A stretch of 64,000 nucleotides of DNA from Alphaproteobacteria bacterium (GTDB lineage Bacteria > Pseudomonadota > Alphaproteobacteria > Rickettsiales > SXRF01): contig JANYES010000019.1 in NCBI GenBank assembly GCA_025362975.1, positions 186,001 through 250,000 on the forward strand, read 5' to 3'. The translations under genes were made by a program, and so were the position numbers. The notes under the pieces were generated by a model that had not been told where the DNA came from, ran no database searches, and was given only the letters and a program-made list of their open reading frames with translations. Position 1 is the first letter of the stretch, and each line of letters begins with the position of its first letter. This document shows, piece after piece, positions 3,302 through 16,300 of this stretch.

Positions 3302-3469
3302 TTACATTGGGGGGGTATTGTCTGACTAACTCTAAGTACCGTTTTGCCCCCACACGCCGCCGATTTCAGGGGCGTTTTTTTCAATCAGTCAGAGAGTGGC
3401 CGAATACGGTGTTCGCACGGTACTCGGCTTTCTCGGAGATCTGCATTATCAGGCCTAACGCCTTGTAAT
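3302..3469. other. Non-coding strip left of the integrated element
   Basis: No credible gene was found here. One short stem (ACGCC at about 3355 pairing with GGCGT at about 3372) is followed by a run of seven T, so a terminator reading rightwards is possible, although nothing upstream clearly needs it. The segment ends directly at the left copy of the tRNA-derived repeat. Confidence 0.4.
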
Positions 3470-3519
3470 GAATGGTGGGCCGTACTGGGGTCGAACCAGT
3501 GACCTATTGATTAAGAGTC
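3470..3519. repeat. attL: 50-bp direct repeat of the tRNA-Lys 3' part
   Basis: It is identical at 49 of 50 positions to 12041-12090 (G at 3490 against A at 12061). It contains the acceptor, T-arm and anticodon-loop part of the tRNA but not the 5' half, so it cannot form a functional tRNA. It marks the left junction of the element. Confidence 0.9.
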
Positions 3520-3662
3520 GGCCTATACTTCGTTTCTATTGGTTTCATCGCATGCATTTTCGTTTCATAAAAAGGCTTATTAATTATTATATATCAATAA
3601 ATAATTGCTCCATGAAGTGGTATGAAACCGCTTGCAATGCTTCATACTGTTGCGTAATATTT

Positions 3663-3681
3663 GCTAGCCAAATGCTAGCCA
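3663..3681. repeat. Left pair of GCTAGCCA octamers (candidate integrase arm sites)
   Basis: Two direct copies of GCTAGCCA start at 3663 and 3674, immediately upstream of the integrase ribosome-binding site. The same paired octamer occurs just inside the right end of the element (11978 and 11990). The placement at both ends suggests arm-type integrase sites. At the left end they would also overlap the int promoter or leader, which would permit autoregulation. Confidence 0.55.
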
Positions 3682-3691
3682 CGGAGTTTTT

Positions 3692-4966
3692 ATGAAGTTC
3701 ACGGATCGCAGTATCGGTAGCCTGAAACCACAAGAGCAGCGCTATATATCATGGGACGATAACGGCAAAGGTTTCGGCGTGCGCGTATCGCCGCAGGGTA
3801 AAAAGACCTTCGTCTATATGTATCGCTTCGACGGGCGTAATCGCATGATGAGCTTGGGCGAATATCCCGACACTAAGCTGGTGGATGCCAACGAAGCCCA
3901 CGCAAAAGCACAAGCGCAACGTAAAAAAGGTATAGACCCCGGTGCTGAACAGGGGGAACAGAAACAGTCCGACCGTAGCGCCTTTACCATGAAGGAGTTG
4001 GCGGAAGAATATATTGAAAAATGGGCAAAAGCCAGAAAACGCTCATGGAAAGAGGATCAGCGCGTACTCGATAAGGACGTGTTGCCGGGGTGGAAATACC
4101 GTAAGGCAAAGAATATCCATCGCCGCGATGTGATCGGCCTATTGGATGAAATCGTGAATCGTGGCGCACCTATACAGGCTAACCGGACGCTGGCTGTAGT
4201 GCGGAAGATGTTCAATTTCGCGCTATCACGCGACATCGTGCCTTTCTCTCCTTGCGCCGGTATATCTCTACCGAGTCCAGAAAATCAACGTGATCGTGTG
4301 CTAAATGATGCAGAGATAAAGCAGTTATGGAATAAACTCGATGAAGCCAAAATGCACAATAACAGCAAGCTGGCGATTAAATTCATACTGGTAACAGGTC
4401 AACGCGCCGGTGAAGTCGTAAGCGCGGAATGGAGCGAGTTTGACAGGAAGGCAAGGTGGTGGGCTATTCCGGGTGAGAAGGCCAAAAACGGACTACTGCA
4501 CCGTGTCCCGTTATCGCCACTAGCCGAAGAATTGCTAAAGAAAATAAAGCCTCACTCGGGTAACAGCCTGTATCTGTTCCCTTCCCCACTTAGCCCTAAG
4601 AAAAATGATTCTAAGCGGAAATCCTTCGCCAAACCTGAGAAACGTTTAGATAAGCCTATCGACGAATCCGCGTTAGGCCATGCGTTTAGGAATAACCTAG
4701 CAACATTAGGGTTGGAAAATGTCAAACCTCACGATTTACGACGCACAGCAGCAAGCCACATGACAGGAGCCGGAATATCCCGGCTGGTAGTTTCAAAAAT
4801 ACTGAACCACGTTGAGAAGGGAGTTACTGCTGTCTATGACAGGTATGGGTACGATACGGAGAAACGACACGCGCTCGATATATGGGCAAAAAAGCTGGAG
4901 GAAGTATTGGCAGGCAAAGAAGAACCAGAATGCGGCAAAGTTGTGCCTATCAAGCAGGCGAAGTAA
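3692..4966 (+). CDS. int: Tyrosine recombinase (P4-type integrase)
   Basis: A 424-residue site-specific recombinase that inserts and helps excise the element at the tRNA-Lys gene. The N-terminal 90 residues form the DUF4102/Arm-DNA-binding domain (WDDNGKGFGVRV, SLGEYPD), followed by a SAM-like core-binding domain at about 98-185 and the catalytic domain. Catalytic residues are visible: R238 (TGQRAGE), H347 and R350 (HDLRRTAASH), H373 (LNHVEKG) and the nucleophile Y382 nine residues later. The length is normal for the family and no key residue is missing. GGAG lies six bases before the ATG. The stop overlaps the next start (TAATG), so the following gene is translationally coupled. Paired octamers directly upstream may let the protein repress its own synthesis. 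Confidence 0.95.
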   Translation: MKFTDRSIGSLKPQEQRYISWDDNGKGFGVRVSPQGKKTFVYMYRFDGRNRMMSLGEYPDTKLVDANEAHAKAQAQRKKGIDPGAEQGEQKQSDRSAFTMKELAEEYIEKWAKARKRSWKEDQRVLDKDVLPGWKYRKAKNIHRRDVIGLLDEIVNRGAPIQANRTLAVVRKMFNFALSRDIVPFSPCAGISLPSPENQRDRVLNDAEIKQLWNKLDEAKMHNNSKLAIKFILVTGQRAGEVVSAEWSEFDRKARWWAIPGEKAKNGLLHRVPLSPLAEELLKKIKPHSGNSLYLFPSPLSPKKNDSKRKSFAKPEKRLDKPIDESALGHAFRNNLATLGLENVKPHDLRRTAASHMTGAGISRLVVSKILNHVEKGVTAVYDRYGYDTEKRHALDIWAKKLEEVLAGKEEPECGKVVPIKQAK

Positions 4967-5832
4967 TGCACGATATTTTTACCAGTGAGGAACGAGAACT
5001 CTATTCTAAATATTTTCATACGTTTGATCCCAAACGCGTCAATAATTTTGAGATTCTGCAACAGCTTGCAGGACTTGATTACATTATATTCCAAGCTGCA
5101 TTCATTGAATCGTACACAACTGGTGGCGGAACATCACTCCTAGGCGGAAAAAATGGGATCGCTGTAAATTGTACTGTTGAAATTCCGAATACCATTTGTA
5201 ATATTCTTAAGGATATAGATCAAGCCATAGTACGCCATGATAAAAATCTACAAAAACACGAAGCCGAAACGGAAACTCCCGTTCAAAAAGGGATAAAAAT
5301 TATATGGGGCATTTATCAAAAAAAAGTATTTATCCGCAGTCCCGGATATGAAGATAAACACCTTGCTTTAGTGCTAGCCTCAATCGGTATTAATGATCTC
5401 ATTGAAAGTATCAAAAAAGATCGTCTTGTAAACGGTTTCCCTAGCAAAAAAAGTAGCGCATTAATTGTTGCTATTACTGTGGCAATGGAAAAATACTTTA
5501 GCGAAGCTGAGAAGCCACTTGTAATTAAGGAAGCTAAAACGCAAGCAGCCAAGAAGGTACGCGGGGCAAGGACACAAGCCTATAATGAAAAAATATATCT
5601 GATAAAAAAATGGTGGAAAGATACCGCTACTGATTATTTTCCTAGACAATCTAATTGTAGAATAATCGATAATGATATCAGGCGAATACTGCCAAAACTC
5701 CGACCTGATTGGTATGATCAAACTACAGGCGAACCCCTGGCACATATTGAAAAAGTCCTCAGTGCTAAGGATACAACCTATAAATGGATTCTTAGAGCAT
5801 TCCGAGAATGGCTACAAAAAACAGTATTATGA
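4966..5832 (+). CDS. Hypothetical protein translationally coupled to integrase
   Basis: Its ATG overlaps the integrase stop (TAATG); the open frame extends further upstream only as a shadow of int. The 288-residue product is basic, lysine-rich and without membrane spans. Residues of about 185-215 (EAKTQAAKKVRGARTQ) look helical and charged, and the C-terminal 70 residues contain many aromatics (WWKDTATDYFPR, LRPDWYD). I do not recognise a family. Coupling to int suggests a role in recombination control, element maintenance or defence, but that is inference from position only. Codon use is AT-rich like the rest of the left half of the element. Confidence 0.7.
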   Translation: MHDIFTSEERELYSKYFHTFDPKRVNNFEILQQLAGLDYIIFQAAFIESYTTGGGTSLLGGKNGIAVNCTVEIPNTICNILKDIDQAIVRHDKNLQKHEAETETPVQKGIKIIWGIYQKKVFIRSPGYEDKHLALVLASIGINDLIESIKKDRLVNGFPSKKSSALIVAITVAMEKYFSEAEKPLVIKEAKTQAAKKVRGARTQAYNEKIYLIKKWWKDTATDYFPRQSNCRIIDNDIRRILPKLRPDWYDQTTGEPLAHIEKVLSAKDTTYKWILRAFREWLQKTVL

Positions 5833-5974
5833 ATGGATTTGTAAAAATTCCTGTACGCGTAGAAGAAATATAATAGCTATGTATCAAATGGTTATGCGTT
5901 GACTGGTGAAATACAAAAAGCTTAACGTTACTGATGCAACCCCACTAACGGCGTTGCAATCAGGAGCAAAGACG

Positions 5975-6193
5975 ATGATTCATGAACAGCCGCAGCGACC
6001 CGCGTGGGATCGTATAATTCGAGAGCATGAAGAAAAAACATTAACTGGAGTTTCACGGGTTTCACGTTGGCGTTGGGAACGCGCTGGGTGCTGGCCCAAA
6101 TCAGTACGGCTCGGGCCAAATTCGCGTGGACATTGGCTTTCCGAAATTTTGGCGGCACTTGAATCACGGAGTGCTAATGATGCCACAGCGTAA
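5975..6193 (+). CDS. AlpA-like transcriptional regulator / excisionase
   Basis: A 72-residue protein with a winged-helix/MerR-like helix-turn-helix of the AlpA type: VSRVSRWRWERAG followed by WPKSVRLGPNSRGHWLSEI matches the AlpA pattern of recognition helix plus R-LG-xSxGW-SEI. Such proteins in integrative elements activate the integrase or act as the directionality factor. The start at 5975 is chosen because AGGAG lies eight bases upstream; a GTG at 5906 would add a low-complexity extension. Its 3' end overlaps the next gene by 17 bp. The gap between 5832 and 5975 probably holds its promoter. Confidence 0.75.
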   Translation: MIHEQPQRPAWDRIIREHEEKTLTGVSRVSRWRWERAGCWPKSVRLGPNSRGHWLSEILAALESRSANDATA

Positions 6194-6353
6194 ATCAGAA
6201 ATTCCCTTGCCAGAAGATACGATACTGCTTGATCAGCGCTATTTGCTGCGAGCAATCGTCAAGCATGTGCTGATACGTCCGCGTATTCACCGCTTGCTTG
6301 GCCATTGGCTAACAACAGCACTTTTCAAGATGTTCAATTTGGAGGCTATATAA
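6177..6353 (+). CDS. Small hypothetical protein (58 aa)
   Basis: Two consecutive ATG codons at 6177 and 6180 could start this short basic protein, which ends in TAATG overlapping the next start. It has no recognisable domain. The tight chain of overlapping starts and stops from 5975 to 7272 supports it being translated. The region LLRAIVKHVLIRPRIHRLLGHWL looks like an amphipathic or basic helix. Confidence 0.5.
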   Translation: MMPQRKSEIPLPEDTILLDQRYLLRAIVKHVLIRPRIHRLLGHWLTTALFKMFNLEAI

Positions 6354-6595
6354 TGGCTGAAATCTTAAATTTTACACATTCAGGCTACCCCGCACCGCAC
6401 ACCGGCCAGCAGGTCGATGTCGATTTTGCCGGTATCTTTGACAAGCTGGCACACGCGGACAATCTGGCGAATAGTATGGCTATGGCTAAGGTGCTGGCCA
6501 ACGCACTTTATGCCCGCAACCAAATCACCGCGCCGGAATGGAGAGGGATCATCGCTATTTTTGAGCCGCGCACCGATGAAAGGATGCTACCATGA
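6353..6595 (+). CDS. Small hypothetical protein (80 aa)
   Basis: The ATG at 6353 overlaps the previous stop, and the TGA at 6593-6595 overlaps the next ATG at 6592, so the gene sits in a translationally coupled chain. The 80-residue product begins with a proline- and histidine-containing stretch, then a helical segment rich in alanine and asparagine (NLANSMAMAKVLANALYARNQ). I recognise no family. Its position before the replication initiator suggests a small accessory or regulatory product. Confidence 0.6.
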   Translation: MAEILNFTHSGYPAPHTGQQVDVDFAGIFDKLAHADNLANSMAMAKVLANALYARNQITAPEWRGIIAIFEPRTDERMLP

Positions 6596-7272
6596 GCGGA
6601 CGCTATATCATGGCGCGGGGCTGGCAGGAACACCCACTTTTTGAGAATGATGAATATAGTCGCCGGGACGCATGGGAATGGCTAATTGCCAACTCATGTT
6701 ATGAGGATACCCAGTGCAATATCAAGGGCAGGATCATCGCACTGAAACGCGGACAACTCAGCCATAGCGTGCGCTTTCTGGCCAAAAAATGGAAATGGAA
6801 AATTACGACAGTATGGCGGTTTTTGAAGCGATTAAAAACCGAAACAATGATTGAAACGGGAAACGGAACAGGACAGTTAATTATAACTATCTGTAATTAC
6901 AATCAATATCAGTGTTTACCTAAAAATGGTGGAACACCTGCCGGAACAGGCAATGGAACGCAAGTGGAACAGGAGCGAAACAAAGATAAAGAAATAAAAG
7001 AAACTCCTTACGGAGCCGATCAAAAACCGGCCAATGGCAATCCGGTAAAAAATTTGTTCGACATCGGCGTGGAATACTTCGTCTCCAAAGGCGTGTCGGA
7101 ACAGCAGGCACGAACTTTCATTGGAAAACTCAGAAAAGATTACGATGACGGAGAAATCATTGGAGCCTTAATACAGGCGCAAAAAGAGCAGGTCATTGAT
7201 CCGAAGGCTTGGATTGCAGCTTATTTCCGAAACCGCAGCCGCGCAGCCGCCTGCGCCGACATGATGAATTGA
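6592..7272 (+). CDS. Replication-initiator-like protein (phage O / DnaD-like)
   Basis: The 226-residue protein opens with a segment typical of phage-type replication or regulatory proteins (ARGWQEHPLF, RRDAWEWLIANSCYED), followed by a winged-helix-like region (residues about 50-85: KRGQLSHSVRFLAKKWKW, TTVWRFLKRL). A polar linker with Thr/Gly repeats leads to a C-terminal helical part (LRKDYDDGEIIGAL...DPKAWIAAYF) like the DNA-binding tail of helicase-loader or DnaD-type proteins. The gene directly precedes the primase-helicase, which supports a role in origin recognition or helicase loading. The start overlaps the preceding stop (ATGA). The functional name is inferred from architecture and neighbours. 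Confidence 0.65.
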   Translation: MSGRYIMARGWQEHPLFENDEYSRRDAWEWLIANSCYEDTQCNIKGRIIALKRGQLSHSVRFLAKKWKWKITTVWRFLKRLKTETMIETGNGTGQLIITICNYNQYQCLPKNGGTPAGTGNGTQVEQERNKDKEIKETPYGADQKPANGNPVKNLFDIGVEYFVSKGVSEQQARTFIGKLRKDYDDGEIIGALIQAQKEQVIDPKAWIAAYFRNRSRAAACADMMN

Positions 7273-7285
7273 CGGGGGCGGCGGC

Positions 7286-9055
7286 ATGAACGACATCACG
7301 AGCAAATTGCAGGTCGAAGGAATCATGCTTCCAGGTGGCGTTCGCCAAGGCAACCACAAGGCGCTATGCCCGAAATGCTCCCACACGCGACGCAAAAAAG
7401 CCGATCCGTGCCTTTCCGTTACCATTGACGCCGACGGCGCGGTTTGGAACTGCCACAACGCCGGTTGCGGATTCACTGGCAGCACCGCCGAAAAGAAAGC
7501 GGACGCTTGCCCTATGAGGAAAAAGCCCGCAAAGCCGCTTTATAAGCGTGAAGAGTTACCAGCTCATGTCATTGCATGGTTTAAGGCCAGAGGCATCACA
7601 GAGGCTACCCTAATGCGAAATAACATAGGCTATGGCAACGCATATATGCCAGCCGTCGCCAAAGAGGTAGGTACGATACAATTTCCCTATCGGCGCGGTG
7701 GCGAGGTGGTGAATATTAAATACCGCGATATGGAAAAACATTTCCGACAAGTGAAGGATGCTGAGAAAATATTTTACGGCCTTGATGACGTCGCCGGTGT
7801 TGATACCGTCATCATCGTCGAGGGGGAAATGGACAAACTGGCACTGGAGGAAGCTGGCATCCGCAACGTCATATCCGTACCGGACGGCGCACCGGCCAAG
7901 CTCAAAGAAACCACCGCGCCGGATGATAAAAAATTCGAGTATATCGGCAGTTCATGGCCACAGCTTGAGCATATCAAAACATTCGTACTGGCAGTCGACA
8001 ATGATGCACCCGGCAAAGTTTTGGAGGAGGAGCTGGCGCGGCGCATAGGCCGGGACAAGTGCCTGCGTGTGAATTGGCCTACGGCTGGCGATGCACCATG
8101 CAAGGATGCAAATGAAGTGTTGATGACGCATGGTGCGGACGTGTTGCGCGAGTGCATAGCGTTGGCGGCTCCGTACCCAATCCGCAATCTGGTGGAAATC
8201 GGCACCGATGAAACCGACATCTTATCGTTATACCGCGAGGGCTATGAAAAAGCATTATCGACGGGCTGGCAATGCCTTGATGATAACCTGAAAATCCGCC
8301 TAGGCGAATTATCCGTAGTCACCGGTACGCCGGGCAGCGGCAAGAGCGAATGGATTGACGCGCTAATGGTGAATCTCGCTGAAAACGAGGGCTTGAAATT
8401 CGCGGTATGCAGCTTTGAAAATCCAGTAGCGACGCACCGCTCCAAGCTTGTCGAAAAGCGAGTGCGCTTACCGTTTTGGCCGGGAATCACGTCGCGCATG
8501 AATGAACAAGAATTAAGACAAGGTGCAGCATGGGTGCGCGATCATTTTCATTTTATGCAGTTTGCCGATGATGCCCCGACCATCGACGCTATACTCGACG
8601 CAGCGCGAGGCGCGGTTCGGCGTTACGGCATCAAGGGGCTGGTAATCGACCCGTACAACGAGATTGAGCATAAGCGTCCGGCGGCGATGACGGAAACCGA
8701 ATACGTTTCTGAAATGCTCGGCAAGGTAAAACGTTTCGCACAAAACCATGATGTGCATGTTTGGTTCGTCGCTCACCCTGCTAAAATGATGAAGGATCAA
8801 TCCGGCAAGCGTTTCATACCGGGACTTTACGACATAAGCGGTAGTGCCAACTGGGTGAACAAAGCGGACATTGGCATCGTTGTGCACCGTGAACCAGAGA
8901 AAAAACCGCCACAAACGGAAATTCATATCCGCAAAGTGCGCTTCCGGCCAGCGGGACAACTTGGAACCGTAATGCTGAATTATGATAAAAAGACAGGCCG
9001 CTACAGTGATCCAGCGGAAATGCGGAGAGAATCCTATGGCCAGAGGTATTCGTAA
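7286..9055 (+). CDS. Bifunctional primase-helicase (T7 gp4 / Twinkle-like)
   Basis: The 589-residue protein has the layout of a replicative primase-helicase. A CHC2-like zinc finger (C28, C31, C56, C61) comes first. A TOPRIM domain follows with the catalytic Glu in VEGEMD (about 177-183) and the metal-binding AVDND (D238, D240). The C-terminal half is a RecA/DnaB-family helicase with Walker A GTPGSGKSEW (347-356, K353) and a Walker B-like strand (GLVIDPYNEI). All major motifs appear intact. It would prime and unwind DNA so the element can replicate apart from the chromosome. It lies 13 bases after the initiator gene and is the strongest evidence that the element replicates autonomously. Confidence 0.9.
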   Translation: MNDITSKLQVEGIMLPGGVRQGNHKALCPKCSHTRRKKADPCLSVTIDADGAVWNCHNAGCGFTGSTAEKKADACPMRKKPAKPLYKREELPAHVIAWFKARGITEATLMRNNIGYGNAYMPAVAKEVGTIQFPYRRGGEVVNIKYRDMEKHFRQVKDAEKIFYGLDDVAGVDTVIIVEGEMDKLALEEAGIRNVISVPDGAPAKLKETTAPDDKKFEYIGSSWPQLEHIKTFVLAVDNDAPGKVLEEELARRIGRDKCLRVNWPTAGDAPCKDANEVLMTHGADVLRECIALAAPYPIRNLVEIGTDETDILSLYREGYEKALSTGWQCLDDNLKIRLGELSVVTGTPGSGKSEWIDALMVNLAENEGLKFAVCSFENPVATHRSKLVEKRVRLPFWPGITSRMNEQELRQGAAWVRDHFHFMQFADDAPTIDAILDAARGAVRRYGIKGLVIDPYNEIEHKRPAAMTETEYVSEMLGKVKRFAQNHDVHVWFVAHPAKMMKDQSGKRFIPGLYDISGSANWVNKADIGIVVHREPEKKPPQTEIHIRKVRFRPAGQLGTVMLNYDKKTGRYSDPAEMRRESYGQRYS

Positions 9056-9126
9056 TAACCGGCAAACAATCGCGGCGCTGGTTAGTATGGCGCGATAAAC
9101 GAACTTATCACTAAGGATGTAATGAT

Positions 9127-9795
9127 ATGAAATCTAAAAAAACAGACGCATTAGAAAAAAAAGAAGTAGCGCCACCGAAAGAGTACACACCTGCTGAATA
9201 TCGTATGATGGCGAGCTTCATGGAGAAGGCAAAAGCACGTCATGAAGCGCCTAAATTAAAGATACAACATAATCCCGGTGAACCTGCCAATATCAGTCCT
9301 TCCAACGACGCGCTTGTTTCCAAACTTGCGCTATGGGAGGCATTCGGCACTACTTCCGCTGACCTTCAATCATACCTGATGCTTGAAATGATAGATGCCG
9401 CGTGTAGAGGCGGCATAGTAAAACCGTATGAAGAATCGAATGTAAACGGTGTAATCGCCGCCATGCACGGAATTGCGCCGCGTGATGAAATCGAAGGGAT
9501 GCTTGCTAGCCAAATGGTTGCCACTCACTTCGCCGCCATGCGCCAAATGCGTAAGATGAAAAATTCTGAAACCATCCCGCAGCAAGATTCCAATAGCAAC
9601 CTCGCTATCAAGCTGCTTCGCACCTATACGGCGCAAATGGAAGCGTTGCAGCGGTATCGCGGTAAAGGGCAGCAAAAAATGACAGTGGAACATGTCCACG
9701 TCCATTCCGGTGGTCAGGCGATTGTCGGCAACGTAACCCGCCCGGAGGGGGGTGGGGTGTCAGATAAAAATGAGGAACAACCCCTTGCAAAGTAA
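9127..9795 (+). CDS. Conserved hypothetical protein (element-associated)
   Basis: The 222-residue protein starts with a Lys/Glu-rich segment, has a predicted helical middle and ends with EHVHVHSGGQAIVGNV and a Gly/Lys-rich tail. I recall this C-terminal motif in proteobacterial genes of unknown function that sit beside HGG...GAPKGN...KHG proteins, exactly as here. AAGGA precedes the ATG. A small-terminase or DNA-packaging role has crossed my mind because of this pairing, but nothing in the sequence proves it. It is the penultimate gene of the rightward element operon. Confidence 0.65.
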   Translation: MKSKKTDALEKKEVAPPKEYTPAEYRMMASFMEKAKARHEAPKLKIQHNPGEPANISPSNDALVSKLALWEAFGTTSADLQSYLMLEMIDAACRGGIVKPYEESNVNGVIAAMHGIAPRDEIEGMLASQMVATHFAAMRQMRKMKNSETIPQQDSNSNLAIKLLRTYTAQMEALQRYRGKGQQKMTVEHVHVHSGGQAIVGNVTRPEGGGVSDKNEEQPLAK

Positions 9796-9802
9796 ATTGA
9801 CT

Positions 9803-10030
9803 ATGCACCAGCACGCGAAATGCCAAGCCCGGACACGAAAAGGCAATCCGTGCCAATCCCCTGCGATGCCAAACGGTAGATGCCGTATGCACGGCGGCTT
9901 GTCCACCGGCGCACCGAAGGGCAATAAAAATGCACGGAAACACGGGCATTATACAGCATTGGCAATAGCCGAGCGTCGGGAAGTCAGGGGTTTGATCCGG
10001 CAATGCCAAGATATGATGCAGGAAATATAA
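9803..10030 (+). CDS. Small HGG-GAPKGN-NARKHG family protein
   Basis: This 75-residue basic protein has two Cys pairs (KCQARTRKGNPC and GRCRMHGG) that could bind a metal, then the hallmark GAPKGNKNARKHG. The ATG at 9803 is chosen because homologues usually begin close to the first cysteine; an ATG at 9770 would add 11 residues. It begins seven bases after the preceding stop, so it is probably coupled to it. The family is common in phages and integrative elements of Proteobacteria, but its function is unknown. Confidence 0.7.
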   Translation: MHQHAKCQARTRKGNPCQSPAMPNGRCRMHGGLSTGAPKGNKNARKHGHYTALAIAERREVRGLIRQCQDMMQEI

Positions 10031-10067
10031 TTTGCTACTCGTCACACTGTAGCTCATGCACCTTGGG

Positions 10068-11135
10068 TCAAATCAGCAGCGACCGAATCCGCTTAAAGCA
10101 TTGCGGCTGATCATTCAGGTCAATCTGGCCATCAATCGCAAGAGACAACACTGGCCAAGTCTTTTCCGGCGCAAGTGGGAAGTTCATAGGCAATGTGGAC
10201 TCCTGATATAGTTCTCGCACATTATCAGCGGAGAAATTTAGATCTTCCGCAAAATCCCGTACATTTTGAACGATCATAGGAGCCAAAGATGCCATTTTCA
10301 CATCGTATAGAGGAAATTGCCGAAGCAACTCCGCAGACGCTCCTCCCCGATTTGCAGCACCATTCAAATCATACGCACAAACGATTAGGTAAAGTTTTAG
10401 CGCGTCCTTTAGTTTGCCACGTCTACCAAGATAGTCTGCCATCATCATATAGGTGTTGCGGCAAAGGCCAAGATCACTGTTTTTGGCGTGTTGAAGTGCT
10501 CGCCGGTTCATCATTCCCCATTTAACATCATCGTCAGAAGGCTCTGGAAATCCTTTGCCAATGAACTGTTTTTTTAGTCTTCCTTTTTCTTCTTCAAAAT
10601 CCTGCTGGTCAAAAGAATGTTTCAAATCTTGGTCATCCAGTTGGGTTTTCTCCCATGCCTCTCTTCTGGTTCTTGCAATTTGCTCCGCTTCGTCCGAACA
10701 CTTTAACAGTTCGCCAGAATAACCAAGCTTCAAGCCAGAGGGATCAACGCTTGCAAGTCGTTCTGCCATTTGTAGCTTAGTGCCAGATACTTTCAGCCCG
10801 TGCTCACGGCAGATTTTCTTCAACTCATTTGTTCCCCTATAGTATAGGATGCGCTGTATTGGGTCATTAACCGAAAGCAGCGCACCGTCTGTTTTAAATG
10901 TCTGAATTGCCGAAACCAGCGATTCGCCGAGAAGTTCATTCCAGTCGACCCATTTCGGTACGCCATCACCAGCATTAGGAGATATGAAACTTTGCAAAAG
11001 TCGCTGATGCCCTTCGGATATGCGCCAATCTATTTGAGTTTTACGGGGCTGGCTTTGCACAAATTTAGATGTACTGGCTGCTGTAGGATTAGAATTAATC
11101 TTAGATGTGGAGAATAATTTTGAAAGGAAATTCAT
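10068..11135 (-). CDS. SAP-domain protein, possible element cargo
   Basis: The 355-residue protein is transcribed against the replication operon and ends 38 bases from it. Residues of about 93-130 form a helix-turn-helix-like SAP motif (YYRGTNELKKICREHGLKVSGTKLQMAERL), a small DNA-binding module. The middle is highly charged and probably coiled (about 150-200). The C-terminal half contains a TPR-like helical stretch (MADYLGRRGKLKDALKLYLIVCAYDLNG) of the kind found in some phage and defence proteins. No catalytic motif is visible. The opposite orientation and lack of link to replication make it a candidate accessory or defence gene. The start has no strong ribosome-binding site. Confidence 0.6.
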   Translation of the reverse strand: MNFLSKLFSTSKINSNPTAASTSKFVQSQPRKTQIDWRISEGHQRLLQSFISPNAGDGVPKWVDWNELLGESLVSAIQTFKTDGALLSVNDPIQRILYYRGTNELKKICREHGLKVSGTKLQMAERLASVDPSGLKLGYSGELLKCSDEAEQIARTRREAWEKTQLDDQDLKHSFDQQDFEEEKGRLKKQFIGKGFPEPSDDDVKWGMMNRRALQHAKNSDLGLCRNTYMMMADYLGRRGKLKDALKLYLIVCAYDLNGAANRGGASAELLRQFPLYDVKMASLAPMIVQNVRDFAEDLNFSADNVRELYQESTLPMNFPLAPEKTWPVLSLAIDGQIDLNDQPQCFKRIRSLLI

Positions 11136-11221
11136 TTGGAGGTGCTTCTGAATTTTGTTGAAAGGTTAGCGTCACTGCTGAACTCTTCTGTGCAATCCTT
11201 GCAGATAATAAGAGCCATATT

Positions 11222-11614
11222 TTATTGCTTTTGCATTACAAAATTTGCAAAACTTGCCTTTGCTTGGAGCATGGAGGGAATGCAGCCAAACATATTATCG
11301 CAACCACCATCAAGCTCAATTGAGTAAGTGCCTTTGCCAGCGGAAGTTTTTGTTACGGTAAAAGCAGGGCTAGGGTCGTTCGGAAGCGGCCCCATAGTCT
11401 GCATGACGTTATCGGAAACAGTCTGAAATTTATACGCCGAGTTCTGCTTTACCCATTGCGTTACGCGGCTCCATTTTTCCTCGCAATCCTTACCGGCTTT
11501 ACAGGTTACAGGGCGATTTGCTGCTGCAAGCATGGCGGCGTTCTGCTCCGGCGTCATTCGCGGGGCACAGGCGGTTAATAATAAAATTGATGTGATGATG
11601 AAATAACGTCTCAT
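11222..11614 (-). CDS. Predicted lipoprotein
   Basis: The 130-residue protein has an N-terminal signal (MRRYFIITSILLLTAC) with a lipobox LTAC, so the cysteine at 16 would be lipidated and the protein anchored in a membrane. The mature part has two Cys pairs (CKAGKDC, and GGCDNMFGC) that could form disulfides outside the cytoplasm. No family is recognised. Being inside the element and on the same strand as the SAP-domain gene, it may be cargo that changes the cell surface, for example superinfection exclusion, but that is speculation from lipoproteins in other phage-like elements. Confidence 0.65.
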   Translation of the reverse strand: MRRYFIITSILLLTACAPRMTPEQNAAMLAAANRPVTCKAGKDCEEKWSRVTQWVKQNSAYKFQTVSDNVMQTMGPLPNDPSPAFTVTKTSAGKGTYSIELDGGCDNMFGCIPSMLQAKASFANFVMQKQ

Positions 11615-11641
11615 AATACCCCCGGCTATTGGTTGCTATAA

Positions 11642-11818
11642 CCACCAGCGTCCGCTGGTGGCAGGGGAGTTTACAAAACCCATACTATAAGGTTCGCAAT
11701 AGCCTTTAGGCTTGCACCTTGGACATACGCTATTGCCTCCCCGCCAAAGCGAGGAGTGCGGTAACGGTGCACAAAACCGATAGTATGGGAGGTTGTAACG
11801 CCCCATGAACGCTATTGC
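11642..11818. repeat. Cluster of inverted and direct repeats (possible origin or recombination control site)
   Basis: This gene-free stretch is dense in symmetry. CCACCAGCG at 11642 pairs with CGCTGGTGG at 11653 (2-base loop). CCCATACTAT (11679-11688) is inverted at 11780-11789. GCAATAGC (11696-11703) is inverted at 11729-11736 and 11811-11818. ACAAAACC recurs before both ATACTAT/ATAGTAT blocks. GGGGAG (11664) is opposed by CTCCCC near 11737. Such nested repeats near the right end of an element with its own helicase would fit a replication origin or excisionase/integrase sites. From 11830 to 11977 I see nothing more. Confidence 0.45.
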
Positions 11819-11977
11819 GCTCACGGCGTCGATAATAGGCAGCGTTCGGGCAGGGTCAAGTTGATTCAGCGGGCTGCAACAAGTGGCTCACTACAATCAG
11901 GTTGCAAAATGTGAGGTACGCCAAGACTGGTATAGGAATGCGATAATTATTTAGTGGGACGTAATACCCGCAAAAAT

Positions 11978-11997
11978 GCTAGCCAAAACGCTAGCCA
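11978..11997. repeat. Right pair of GCTAGCCA octamers (candidate integrase arm sites)
   Basis: GCTAGCCA occurs at 11978-11985 and 11990-11997, about 45 bp inside the right att repeat, and mirrors the pair at 3663-3681 in sequence and spacing (12 against 11 bases between starts). Both pairs are in the same orientation. Confidence 0.55.
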
Positions 11998-12040
11998 CAG
12001 CGAATTTTCTAAAAATGGCTATCATGTAACCTATTGAAAA

Positions 12041-12090
12041 GAATGGTGGGCCGTACTGGGATCGAACCAGTGACCTATTGATTAAGAGTC
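12041..12090. repeat. attR: 50-bp direct repeat within tRNA-Lys
   Basis: This is the right copy of the att repeat (see 3470-3519). It lies inside the functional tRNA gene, covering CCA, acceptor strand, T arm, variable region and anticodon loop, so the element carries the sequence that rebuilds the tRNA after insertion. Confidence 0.9.
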
Positions 12091-12119
12091 AACCGCTCTA
12101 CCAACTGAGCTAACGGCCC
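12044..12119 (-). tRNA. tRNA-Lys (anticodon CTT)
   Basis: The reverse strand reads GGGCCGT at the 5' end and ACGGCCC-A-CCA at the 3' end, a perfect 7-bp acceptor stem with an encoded CCA. D-loop (AGCTCAGTTGGTAGAGC), anticodon loop CTCTTAA and T-loop GGTTCGATCC are all standard. The anticodon CTT reads AAG lysine codons. It is 76 nt long. The gene is the integration target of the neighbouring element, which has restored its 3' half. Confidence 0.97.
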
Positions 12120-12355
12120 ACAAGACGCGAGAATCTGCGTTGCCACAGGTGTAACATTTCTTTTGGGATTAGCAAGCGGAAGGGCATAAGTTTAACATTA
12201 TTTTCTTACCAACTCCACCTTTTTGTATGGAAAAATAGCATGGTTATCAAATTGTTAGTTCCCGGCGCGCATTGGATTTTTACTGATTTCCGCTGTTTTT
12301 TGCGCTATAATCGGAGCTAAGGAGCCAGCTAGGCGCCCCCAGACGGGAGTGATTC

Positions 12356-12622
12356 ATGACAGATTTCGAACAGATGCTGTTATACGATTACCGGCTTACG
12401 ACAGCAGAAATACTTTATCACATGCCGGACCATCCGGCCCTTTTGCAGACATTTATCTGGCAGGAGCTGGATATCGCGCCGCGCTTTCCGGTGCTGGGTA
12501 AATTCCTGACATTCTGGGAAAAGGAAATTGAAGGCAAGCTTCACTCGGTAAAAATCGCCAGCGCCAAGCTGGTCGTGCCCGCGAAGTTCGTCAACTGCAT
12601 CGGCGAACTCAGAATCCATTAA
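12356..12622 (+). CDS. usg: Usg family protein
   Basis: The 88-residue protein matches the alphaproteobacterial Usg family from end to end: YRLTTAEILYHMPDHPALLQ, then W..LDIAPRFPVL, then FL.FWE.EIEGKLHSV. Its biochemical role is not established. The name comes from early annotation near unrelated biosynthetic genes. GGGAG lies upstream of the ATG. It is monocistronic, flanked by tRNA-Lys and a bidirectional terminator. Length is typical. Confidence 0.85.
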   Translation: MTDFEQMLLYDYRLTTAEILYHMPDHPALLQTFIWQELDIAPRFPVLGKFLTFWEKEIEGKLHSVKIASAKLVVPAKFVNCIGELRIH

Positions 12623-12639
12623 AAAACCTACGCTTTACT

Positions 12640-12680
12640 CAATAAAAAACCCCAGCTTGTTGGCCGAGGTTTTTTTATTG
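12640..12680. terminator. Bidirectional terminator between usg and the convergent gene
   Basis: CAATAAAAAACC at 12640 is complementary to GGTTTTTTTATTG ending at 12680, with an inner loop of about 16 bases. T-runs occur on either strand, so it can serve usg (plus) and the 108-aa gene (minus). Confidence 0.7.
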
Positions 12681-12699
12681 GCTTACAACGAAGCGCTCT

Positions 12700-12741
12700 T
12701 ATGCTTCTTCGCTCTCGACTTATGCTTCTTCGCTCTCGACT
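12700..12741. repeat. Perfect 21-bp tandem duplication at a gene 3' end
   Basis: The 21 bases at 12700-12720 are repeated exactly at 12721-12741. The unit covers the last codons and stop of the minus-strand gene, and 21 is a multiple of three. The outer copy lies beyond the stop, so the protein is unchanged. Confidence 0.9.
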
Positions 12742-13046
12742 TCTTCTTCGTCTTCTACCAAACGGCGCGCTTTGCGGCCAGCATCCGGTTTGGATTTCAC
12801 GAGTTTGCCTTTATCCTGGTCCCACGAATAGTGGTACACGACGGTCTTGGTACCCGTGGTCACAATGTCGCCATTGGCCAGCTGGAGTACATCAAAACCT
12901 TTCTGCAAAGAATCCTGGATCAGCGAGGACGACTGGCGCAGATAGCGCGCGTCCAGCATCATGTTCGTGATTTCCGGTTCGGCATCCGGCGTCTTTTTGG
13001 CAATCTGCGAAGCGATTCTCTTAGACGTCAGGTCAAATTTTTTCAT
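12720..13046 (-). CDS. Conserved small hypothetical protein with acidic tail
   Basis: The 108-residue protein begins MKKFDLTSKRIASQIAKKTPDAEPEITNMM and ends in a strongly acidic tail (EDEEEVESEEA). The middle contains a compact domain (LANGDIVTTGTKTVVYHYSWD) and then a basic patch (GRKARR). I think similar proteins occur in several alphaproteobacteria as a domain of unknown function, but I cannot name it with certainty. It is monocistronic, with its own AT-rich upstream region (13047-13265) and the bidirectional terminator downstream. The stop lies at the junction of a 21-bp tandem duplication. Confidence 0.7.
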   Translation of the reverse strand: MKKFDLTSKRIASQIAKKTPDAEPEITNMMLDARYLRQSSSLIQDSLQKGFDVLQLANGDIVTTGTKTVVYHYSWDQDKGKLVKSKPDAGRKARRLVEDEEEVESEEA

Positions 13047-13265
13047 TAGGTGTCCTTAGCAGAAATGAGAAAGTTAATTTTATTACTTATGTACAGTTAA
13101 AAGATGGGGAAATAGCTGGAAAAACCATATATGGCCGCATCATTCGTATCTCACGCATACTGTAGTAGATAACTTTGAACCCCTTGTCAACTTCTATCAA
13201 CAAAGAATTTACCATTTAGAACAGATTGTTAACAAATACATATCAGCCCTTGATGCCATAAAACA
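13047..13265. other. AT-rich intergenic region upstream of the 108-aa gene
   Basis: No gene is visible. The segment should carry the leftward promoter for the 108-aa gene, but I cannot choose a convincing -35/-10 pair. Confidence 0.4.
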
Positions 13266-13300
13266 CCGCCGCATGAGCCGGTTGATGGCTTATGCGGCGG
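13266..13300 (-). terminator. Terminator of the fliK-flgD-flgE transcript
   Basis: A 14-bp stem with one G-U pair (13266-13279 with 13287-13300) and a 7-base loop lies about 50 bases after the flgE stop. On the minus strand it is followed by a T-containing run (GTGTTTTAT). It is the strongest hairpin in this intergenic region. Confidence 0.7.
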
Positions 13301-13349
13301 GTTTCAAGACTGATGGCGCATCATAAATGCTCTAAAAAATCCTGACCGA

Positions 13350-16300
13350 TTATTGAATAATCTGGTCAAGGCTCTGGAGCAGATTGTCGGCGGTTTGAAT
13401 CACCTTGGTATTGGCCTGGTAAGCACGCTGCGCGACGATCATGTCGGTCAGCTGGCTTGCCAATTCCACGTTCGAGGTTTCGAGTGCGCCCGGGGAAATC
13501 GAGCCCACACCGCTCGCGCCCGCTTGCTTGAGGTTGGCGATACCCGAGCCGTTGGACTGCGAATACGCGTCGCCCGAAGCGCCCTGCAGCCGGTTCGGAT
13601 CGGTAAACGATGCCAACGGGATTTTGTACAGCTTTTGGGTTTCACCGTTGTTGTAGGCGGCAGTGATGAAGCCGTTTGCGTCAATCGAAATCCCGGTCAA
13701 CTGGCCTACCGGCGAGCCGTTCTGATTCACGAAGGATACGTTGTAGCCGGAATCGAACTGGCTCAGACCGTCGGTCTTGCCGATTGATGCGGCGCCCACG
13801 GTGCCGAACGGCAAGCCTTGCGTACCCCAGTCGAACGACACGTTGCTCGGGGTAGAACCGTTCGTCCAGTTTATATTGATCGGGTTGGTCAGCGACGCGC
13901 TTACGCTCTGCAAGCTGCCATCACCGTTGAAGCGGATGGTGCCGGTAGCGATCTGTCCATTGATGAGCGATGCCGAAGCCGGGGTGATGTTGGTTGCCGG
14001 CTGTGCGTAGACTTCCACGGCCCACGTGTTGTTCTGCAACTTGGCGAACGCGACGTTGAGGTTATGGGAAGTACCCAGACCGTCGAAAATGCTCACCGGA
14101 CGGCTGAACTGCGGCGAGATTGCGCCCGAAGCCATGTTGGTGGTCGCCACCTGCGGATTGTATGCAGGGCCGGCCGGGCCGACCGATTCAGCCACGAACG
14201 CTCCGCCGTTGAGCGACGCGCCGATACCCAGCTGAGCAAGCAAGCTGCCGGTGTTGAGGGCGCCGTCTTTGAAGCTGATCGTATCGGTCGGGTCCACTAC
14301 GTTGATCTTGAGGTCGGACGCGCCAAGCGGGTTTTCAAGGTTGGAAGTAATACCAGAAGACAGGCTGACCAGCTGGCCTAGCGAGGAGAGCGAATTGAAA
14401 CGGTTCGCACCCAGCGCATAGGATTGCACGCCCAGCTCGCGTGTCCAGTCTACCCCCCCCTGCACTACACCGCCGGTGCCCGTTGTGGCAACTGTCTGGT
14501 TATTGGTGAAGGTCACCGCCTGCGTCGCATCGCTCGCACCGACATAGATGCGGCTGTTAACCACGCGGGCCGTAAGCCCCACCGTGTTATTGATCGCATC
14601 GGCGAGGTTGTTGAGGTTGTTGAACTGACCCGGCGATGCGTTCGGCGAGGTCGACGTGTAAGTGAATTTCACCGTGCCGGTTGCCGAGGTAGTGATGTTG
14701 AACGACAGCGCGTTCGGGTCGATGCCGCTGATGCCGGTCACGCCGAAGAAGGACTGCGAAGCGTTCTGCGCATCGAAGATATTACCGACATACGGACGTG
14801 CAGTGGCAACCGAAGCGATACCGCCGCCAGCACTGCTGGTTGCGTTTGCAGCCGCGGTGATGGTGTAGTGGTTAATGTCGACGACGGTCACAATGAAGGT
14901 GCCGGTCAGCTGCGCCTGCGTCAGGCCGCCGATACCGCCCGCCGGGATGCTGGACATCGTCACGACGTCACCCGTAACCAGCCCGTGGGCAGGTTCATAG
15001 ATGGAAACCGTCGGCGAGTTTAACGTCGTCGAAATCGGCGCACGCTCCGAGGTAATGGTACCCAAGCCGCCCGCCTGACTGCCGCCGGTGGTGAGCTTCG
15101 CCGTGAGTGCCGTAAGCGTCGTCCCGCCGGCAACGTTGCCAAGCGTCGCCGTGCCGAGGCTGTTGATGACATAGTGGTTAGCATTGGTGATTGAGGTGAT
15201 CTGGAACGAGCCGTTGAGCGTCAGGCCATCAACCGCGCCGTTAACACCGGCGAAAGTAACGAAGGTGCCGACCTTGGCGTTAGCCGGAAGCGGCTGTGAA
15301 ACGGTAACCAGCGTATTACCGGCAACCGAAGTGCCCGTCTTGAACGGATTGGGGGTGACGGTGTCGTTGATCGTGCCGCCCGTGGTGCTACCCACGGTCG
15401 CCGTGCCGGTCGAAACGAAGGTGAAGCTGGTCGGCCCGGTGACGGTGATCTGGTGAGCGCCGTTGATCTGCGGAGCGGTGATACCGTCGAAACCGGCGTC
15501 ACCGGCGATGGTGATATAGTCGCCGTTACGCAGATTGGTAGTATCGGCCGTGACCGTGATGACAGTAGCGCCAGCCACGCTCGGACCGGTTTGCATGCTG
15601 TTGATCGGTTGCGTCTGCACCGTGGTATTAAGTGTCGCGGTGGGCGGAACGGTCGGCGTGCCGAGGCTGTTGACAGTGAAGTGGTTGGCGTCGTTGAGCA
15701 CGGTCACCTGGAAAGTGCCGTTAAGCGTGATGCCATCCACCGGCGAAGTAACGCCAGCAAGCGTGACCCAGTCGCCCACCGCAATGTTGGCTGGCGGGGC
15801 TTGCGAAATCGTAACCGGCGTGTTGCCGGTAACGGCAGCGCCGATATAGAACGGTTGCGGGGTGACGAGGTCGCCCACGGTGCCGCCGCTTACGTTGCCG
15901 ACAGAGGCCGTGCCCGGAGTGACGTAGGAGAAATGCGTCGCGTCGATCACGGTGATTTGCTGCGAGCCGTTGATTTCGAATGCTGGAATGCCATCGAGTG
16001 CTGAGCTTTCACCGGTGATGTTAACATAGTCGCCCGTTTTCAAATTAGTGGTGGACGCCGTAACGATGATCGGGGTGGCACCGGCCACGCTCGCACCGGT
16101 TTTCAGCGAACCGGCGGCAAGTGCTGGTAATGCGGCCGTGCCGAGGGTAACGACAGGCGGCGTAAGCGGGGTGGCGTTGGTCTTCAGATCCTTCGCGTTT
16201 TCACCGTCGCCGAGCGTGGCGCCGTTGGTGACGTCGCGGCCATAGGTGAAGCCGCCATACACGTAGTTGAAGCCCGAGGTGTTGACACCCGTAGAAATAT

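Follow-up and report, generated by a model that had tools for sequence, protein, structure and literature searches.

The described families of phage satellites come mainly from Gammaproteobacteria, Firmicutes, and certain marine lineages. Members of the PICI family are about 9 kb long and carry an integrase, an AlpA-type regulator, their own replication genes, and functions for packaging redirection, and some have a true small terminase. The phage-inducible chromosomal minimalist islands (PICMI) of Vibrionaceae are integrated at fis, require int, alpA, and prim, and depend for excision on an essential gene that overlaps the int stop codon by 1, 4, or 13 nt in 21 of 35 subfamilies; PICMI115 is without a terS, sid, or ppi homologue (PMC10803314). 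We analyzed a 64,000-nt stretch of an alphaproteobacterial genome of the order Rickettsiales (assembly GCA_025362975.1, contig JANYES010000019.1, positions 186,001 to 250,000; hereafter the window), in which an 8.6-kb island lies at a tRNA-Lys gene. The island is intact and belongs to a satellite-like family that is marked by a new module, a pair of genes encoding a 222-aa protein (p222) and an 86-aa protein (HGG); it is likely to be a member of a helper-dependent phage satellite family of Alphaproteobacteria.

The window island resembles a PICMI in its small size, in the order of the integrase gene, a gene overlapping the int stop codon by a few nucleotides (1 nt in the window, at 4966), alpA, and a primase gene, and in having no capsid genes. 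It differs in its site (tRNA-Lys, not fis), in its alphaproteobacterial rather than Vibrionaceae host, and in the addition of a helicase loader, of a helicase domain of the DnaB type, and of p222-HGG; because it is not integrated at fis, it is not a PICMI. With PICIs it shares the size, integrase, AlpA, and own replication genes, and it may have a comparable packaging-redirection module, but in place of a PICI-type small terminase it has only a detached N-terminal domain of such a protein beside p222, and the hosts differ. Integration into a tRNA gene, AlpA, a large primase-helicase protein, and the lack of structural genes are as in P4-like satellites, whereas the replication module is of a DnaD-like loader and Toprim/DnaB type. 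The island is a satellite-sized integrated element like cfPICIs, but Pfam and PHROG scans found no capsid, portal, or large-terminase gene in it. Those scans also matched no PICI capsid-remodelling family and no family of the P4 capsid-size and packaging proteins (Sid, Psu, Delta). The island agrees with a broad definition of phage satellites in its own integrase and att ends and in having no complete set of particle genes, and HGG, as a small-terminase domain, may favor packaging in helper particles; by analogy the island would work like a PICMI or a PICI.

An earlier reading of the window from its sequence alone had proposed that the island is laid out as a phage satellite or as a minimal integrative element that replicates. 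The proposal was borne out, as the same gene order was found at tRNA-Lys, tRNA-Ala, tRNA-Glu, and tRNA-Phe genes and sister islands occupied the same tRNA-Lys. It passed over positions 9127-10030, which encode p222 and HGG and are the most informative part of the island.

Distribution of the p222-HGG pair

Relatives of p222 were found in ten other genomes among 344 genomes of the same order, in which the primase-helicase had one clear relative. The primase-helicase was also considered as a family marker and rejected; it is not common to the family, because its further relatives were distant and belonged to phages or to contigs resembling them (L002, L003, and L004). Among 84,980 species genomes, 142 relatives of p222 were identified, 80 of which were kept, chiefly from Alphaproteobacteria with a few records labelled otherwise. 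Carriers of p222 amounted to 11 of 385 genomes drawn evenly from the class, the window's own genome included, and to 19 of 398 in a phylum-wide draw, four of them outside the class. HGG overlapped p222 or lay 3' of it at 86 of the 92 loci examined; it was located by a six-frame profile search, as greedy calling of the longest open reading frames (ORFs) misses HGG in GC-rich loci. No p222 was present among 50,697 phage records. It was rare in IMG/VR (3 contigs), where the 8.6-kb contig L124 carried integrase, AlpA, and p222-HGG in this order.

Where the flanking sequence sufficed, p222 mostly lay at the end of a small integrase-bearing island. These islands often contained an AlpA-like gene and had replication modules that differed from that of the window island, and the integrases also varied. 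The p222-HGG pair is the conserved core of the island family, and it is a portable module. Four islands of 6.1 to 9.5 kb had an identical plan, running from a half-tRNA att site and an integrase gene to p222, HGG, and an intact tRNA: the window island (tRNA-Lys, 8.6 kb), the L032/L090 island of UBA998 (tRNA-Ala, 8.1 kb), the L048 island of a Magnetospirillum metagenome-assembled genome (MAG; tRNA-Glu, 6.1 kb), and the L094 island of a Desulfovibrio MAG (tRNA-Phe, 9.5 kb). The tRNA was located at the integrase side instead in L029, L035, L036, L049, and L088. In several relatives, a gene overlapped the int stop codon by 4 nt. The tRNA-Leu p222-HGG island of a Sneathiella MAG (L088, 8344-16053) adjoined an ORF resembling phage DNA polymerases and another, of 1518 aa, that had phage-type matches.

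The family is apparently undescribed; we found no literature description of such alphaproteobacterial satellites or of the HGG motif (HGGxSTG), an earlier description elsewhere being possible. The marker pair would find islands across a class with few described satellites, and cultured isolates of Jannaschia, Tropicimonas, Methylobacterium, Nitrobacter, and Bradyrhizobium carry it.

HGG and p222 proteins

Small-terminase families were matched by most of 25 HGG proteins (phrog_9231 by 23 and phrog_1889 by 17). Cysteines 18, 28, and 38 and histidine 41 were invariant, which suggests a CCCH zinc knuckle. Similarity search retrieved a single phage record, Pasteurella phage Pm86, with the domain at the N-terminus of ORF53 (1e-24 to phrog_1889) and the large terminase encoded by the adjoining ORF54. 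In IMG/VR, 74 of 86 viral HGG proteins were encoded directly upstream of a large terminase, and HGG formed the N-termini of viral proteins of approximately 150-236 aa. The profile of the satellite HGG matched that of the phage small terminases at 99.95%. In the islands, HGG is this N-terminal, zinc-knuckle-like domain of a phage small-terminase family standing alone. In the phage proteins (phrog_1889 and phrog_9231, including Pm86 ORF53), the homologous knuckle domain is fused to a C-terminal part and the large terminase gene is next, whereas the island version stands free and is paired with p222.

When 84 free HGG domains and 55 from phages were placed on a tree, the two kinds were separated by a single change, as they were when the motif region alone was used; 40-47 changes were needed in the ten label shuffles shown. 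The free HGG proteins are therefore one lineage and not a set of recent captures, although the domain is short and the branch order within the tree is not trusted.

For 63 members of p222, no Pfam, PHROG, NCBIfam, or PDB family was retrieved beyond stray single matches. AlphaFold modelled p222 confidently as helical (mean pLDDT 85), except for a tail of low confidence that is strongly conserved (consensus QKVTVEHVHVHxGGQAIVG), and the fold search gave no match at E 0.001 in the PDB or viral models. By eye, p222 was an attractive candidate for the C-terminal half of a small terminase; profile comparison returned a probability below 1%, and this identity is therefore not claimed. In comparison with L029, the rates of nonsynonymous (dN) and synonymous (dS) change were 0.37 and 1.90 for p222 and 0.26 and 2.55 for HGG; the third-position excess fits purifying selection on both genes, though dS is near saturation.

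Proposed role of the pair

Because HGG is a detached piece of a phage packaging protein, the islands are suggested to travel in the particles of other phages, and p222-HGG is the probable packaging module of the island. Infection by a helper phage would activate AlpA, and AlpA, the integrase, and the int-overlapping gene would, by analogy with PICMI, excise a circle, which the primase-helicase of the element would copy. HGG and p222 could then steer the large terminase of the helper onto the satellite DNA or, alternatively, displace its own small terminase; the satellite DNA would be packaged in helper particles and integrated into the tRNA of the next cell. Our more specific proposal, which is tentative, is that p222-HGG acts as a packaging-hijack device, a satellite-specific split small terminase that combines a phage knuckle domain with a protein of unknown fold and may be used by a large undescribed class of alphaproteobacterial satellites with exchangeable integrases, replication genes, and plasmid backbones. 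If the pair does redirect packaging, a small-terminase fragment and such a protein suffice for a satellite, and the minimum that a satellite needs for capsid entry could be tested with two genes.

Several points weigh against the reading of the island as a satellite. The integration and replication parts were read from the sequence, whereas we infer the mobilization by phage (helper, induction, and packaging) by analogy and with it the role of p222-HGG in packaging, so that the label of satellite is of the same kind. In profile comparison, p222 had no detectable similarity to small terminases. The host genome contained no HGG-type small-terminase prophage and only weak large-terminase matches, and the helper is therefore presumably a non-resident phage. 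The pair is also not exclusive to small satellites, because it is carried by larger serine-recombinase/restriction-modification islands, by plasmids, and once beside tail genes.

The last case, L114 of Shinella sp. UYSO24, is the only locus examined that ties p222-HGG to a phage morphogenesis region. The pair directly follows phage tail genes, including those for the tape measure, and neck genes (3995-10727), and a 270-aa ORF matching a large-terminase PHROG is also just upstream. This context, together with the phage-like replication genes of the window island, would suit what remains of a prophage after deletion of its late genes. We regard such an origin as extremely unlikely, as islands of this compact plan, in which the ORFs are open and the att ends derive from tRNAs, recur across many hosts with integrases and replication genes that are unrelated, p222 is absent from the phage records, and the free and phage HGG domains split by a single change on the tree. 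Apart from L114, the expectation from the sequence-only reading that homologous elements would carry no packaging genes held: no large-terminase ORF was detected in 1.29 Mb at 92 p222 loci with a model from large terminases adjoining HGG-type small terminases, which other large-terminase types could escape because it drew solely on these HGG-associated proteins.

Genomes of Nitrobacter, Mesorhizobium, a member of Kordiimonadales, and other bacteria carried a second, larger class of islands (L058, L063, L066, L080, and similar loci). By reading of the translations, and not by profiles, their order was an XRE-like gene, a CHC2-type primase gene, a DUF3987-like gene, p222-HGG, and type I restriction-modification genes, and a serine recombinase family was present in 12 of these neighbourhoods. 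The adjoining restriction-modification genes, and the occurrence of HGG without the rest of the terminase protein, would be expected if the pair were an anti-phage or helper-interference device; free HGG would then block HGG-type small terminases as a decoy, and the island would persist by protecting the cell, with or without regular transfer by phage. This explanation is rather unlikely as an alternative to packaging hijack: neither p222 nor HGG had a PADLOC match, and the free HGG proteins form one lineage apart from the phage small terminases and are not copies of current local phages, which a decoy in an arms race might be. Nor are the two functions exclusive; known satellites often both interfere and hijack packaging.

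Fourteen plasmids carried p222, some of them typed mobilizable. One was the repABC plasmid of Microvirga lotononidis (L127, 11003-20835), on which p222-HGG is next to a DNA-ejection-like protein (phrog_4287); this plasmid also has very large ORFs without a known family and is possibly a satellite living as a plasmid. The mobilizable plasmids, like the small size, integrase, and own replication genes of the window island, fit an integrative mobilizable element that is moved without a phage by a conjugative element, through an oriT mimicking that of its helper. We consider this very improbable for the window island, as the Pfam scan found no relaxase or mobilization family in it, HGG is a terminase domain, and a sister island in the same tRNA has a small terminase.

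Structure of the window island

The island is bounded by a direct repeat with 48 of 49 nt identical (one mismatch), and when widened to 64 nt, the pair retained 91% identity, and no other direct repeat in the region came near it in size (Table 1). The left copy is the displaced 3' half of tRNA-Lys (45 nt, 98%, E 1e-19), and the right copy is within the intact tRNA-Lys(CTT) identified by ARAGORN; the match between the two ends is far above chance. The insert has a G+C content of 0.475, compared with 0.449 for the left flank and 0.572 for the right. The att repeats and rebuilt tRNA described in the sequence-only reading were thus recovered.

Table 1. Features of the tRNA-Lys island in window coordinates
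Feature	Position	Strand	Evidence
att repeat, left end (displaced tRNA-Lys 3' half)	3471..3519	.	48/49 nt vs 12042-12090
Tyrosine integrase, 424 aa	3692..4966	+	PF00589 E 3e-22, PF13356 E 7e-18, phrog_1 E 2e-69
288-aa gene, positional counterpart of the PICMI int-overlapping gene	4966..5832	+	Sequence, overlap survey
AlpA-like regulator/excisionase, start uncertain (GTG 5906 or ATG 5975)	5975..6193	+	PF05930 E 1e-7 above cut-off, phrog_2790 E 1e-7
57-aa ORF overlapping alpA end	6180..6353	+	ORF; no Pfam/PHROG match below E 0.1
80-aa ORF, 1-nt overlap with 57-aa ORF	6353..6595	+	ORF; no Pfam/PHROG match
DnaD-like helicase loader, 226 aa	6592..7272	+	phrog_2514 E 3e-16, phrog_35955 E 6e-28, phrog_186 E 2e-7
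Primase-helicase (Toprim + DnaB_C), 589 aa	7286..9055	+	PF13662 E 2e-11, PF03796 E 1e-15, phrog_239 E 9e-96
p222, 222 aa, first gene of marker pair; helical model	9127..9795	+	Relatives at 142 genome loci
HGG, 86 aa, stand-alone small-terminase N-terminal domain, putative CCCH knuckle (ATG 9770 or 9803)	9770..10030	+	Profile matches
Accessory gene, SAP-domain protein, 355 aa	10068..11135	-	PF02037 E 6e-6, PF18953 E 2e-6, both above cut-offs
Accessory gene, small lipoprotein-like ORF, 130 aa	11222..11614	-	LTAC lipobox by eye
att repeat, right end, within intact tRNA	12042..12090	.	Repeat comparison
Intact tRNA-Lys(CTT), integration site	12044..12119	-	ARAGORN

The forward-strand genes span 3692-10030, many of them overlapping or nearly so, and are followed by two leftward genes. 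All named ORFs are open, and the integrase and helicase genes, whose disruption in all relatives would have counted against the sequence-only proposal, are intact here. Pfam and PHROG matches confirmed the integrase, the AlpA-like regulator, and the full primase-helicase; the 226-aa protein, described in the sequence-only reading as initiator-like, is a helicase loader of the DnaD-like kind. The same scans gave no convincing match to a capsid, portal, large-terminase, tail, or conjugation family, in agreement with the reported lack of capsid and conjugation genes within the 8.6 kb. The island looks able to excise and replicate itself while making no particle.

The 288-aa gene had been listed as private cargo, which is not obvious: its ATG and the integrase stop codon share 1 nt (TAATG, 4964-4968), the position of the PICMI gene, and by this analogy it is probably part of an excision operon. 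It had no family match in the Pfam, PHROG, or PADLOC scans. The two leftward genes had also been listed as cargo; the SAP domain was confirmed and the lipobox was recognized by eye, but the cargo that defines the island is p222-HGG. PADLOC, the sole database scanned for the lipoprotein-like ORF, gave no match to it, and its two weak matches in the island were both to the loader.

The tRNA-Lys site in related genomes

It had been proposed to look for an empty tRNA-Lys site in sister strains. In both sister genomes of the genus, this tRNA-Lys was instead occupied by other islands with the same repeat, approximately 8.7 and 8.0 kb long, and their integrases were 30% and 26% identical to that of the window. 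An empty site was found in another genus of the family: G006 had a single copy of the repeat at the tRNA, with a chromosomal gene ending approximately 20 nt before it, and its tRNA-Lys therefore reads as unoccupied. Three other candidates were rejected. The sequence of G003 stops approximately 300 nt past the tRNA and was unusable, G014 had one tRNA copy with different right-flank genes, and in G005 the tRNA was in scattered, inverted pieces.

The sister islands are two further satellite-like islands, unrelated, in the same tRNA-Lys. The proteins scanned in L237 (G010) included a primase and also a small terminase (phrog_51 E 2e-18), but no large terminase; in having a true small terminase, this island resembles some PICIs. 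L238 (G009) has an int-overlapping gene and also encodes a helicase, an AlpA-like protein, and a primase of the CHC2 type. No structural protein was found among those scanned in either island. The tRNA-Lys is a hotspot for small satellite-type islands.

Two minor features were observed at these loci. In L258 of G005 (3401-15786), the tRNA-Lys is in several separate and inverted pieces around an integrase gene, as if broken by repeated integrations and an inversion. Just to the right of the window island, a 108-aa ORF contains a perfect 21-nt tandem duplication (12698-12739).

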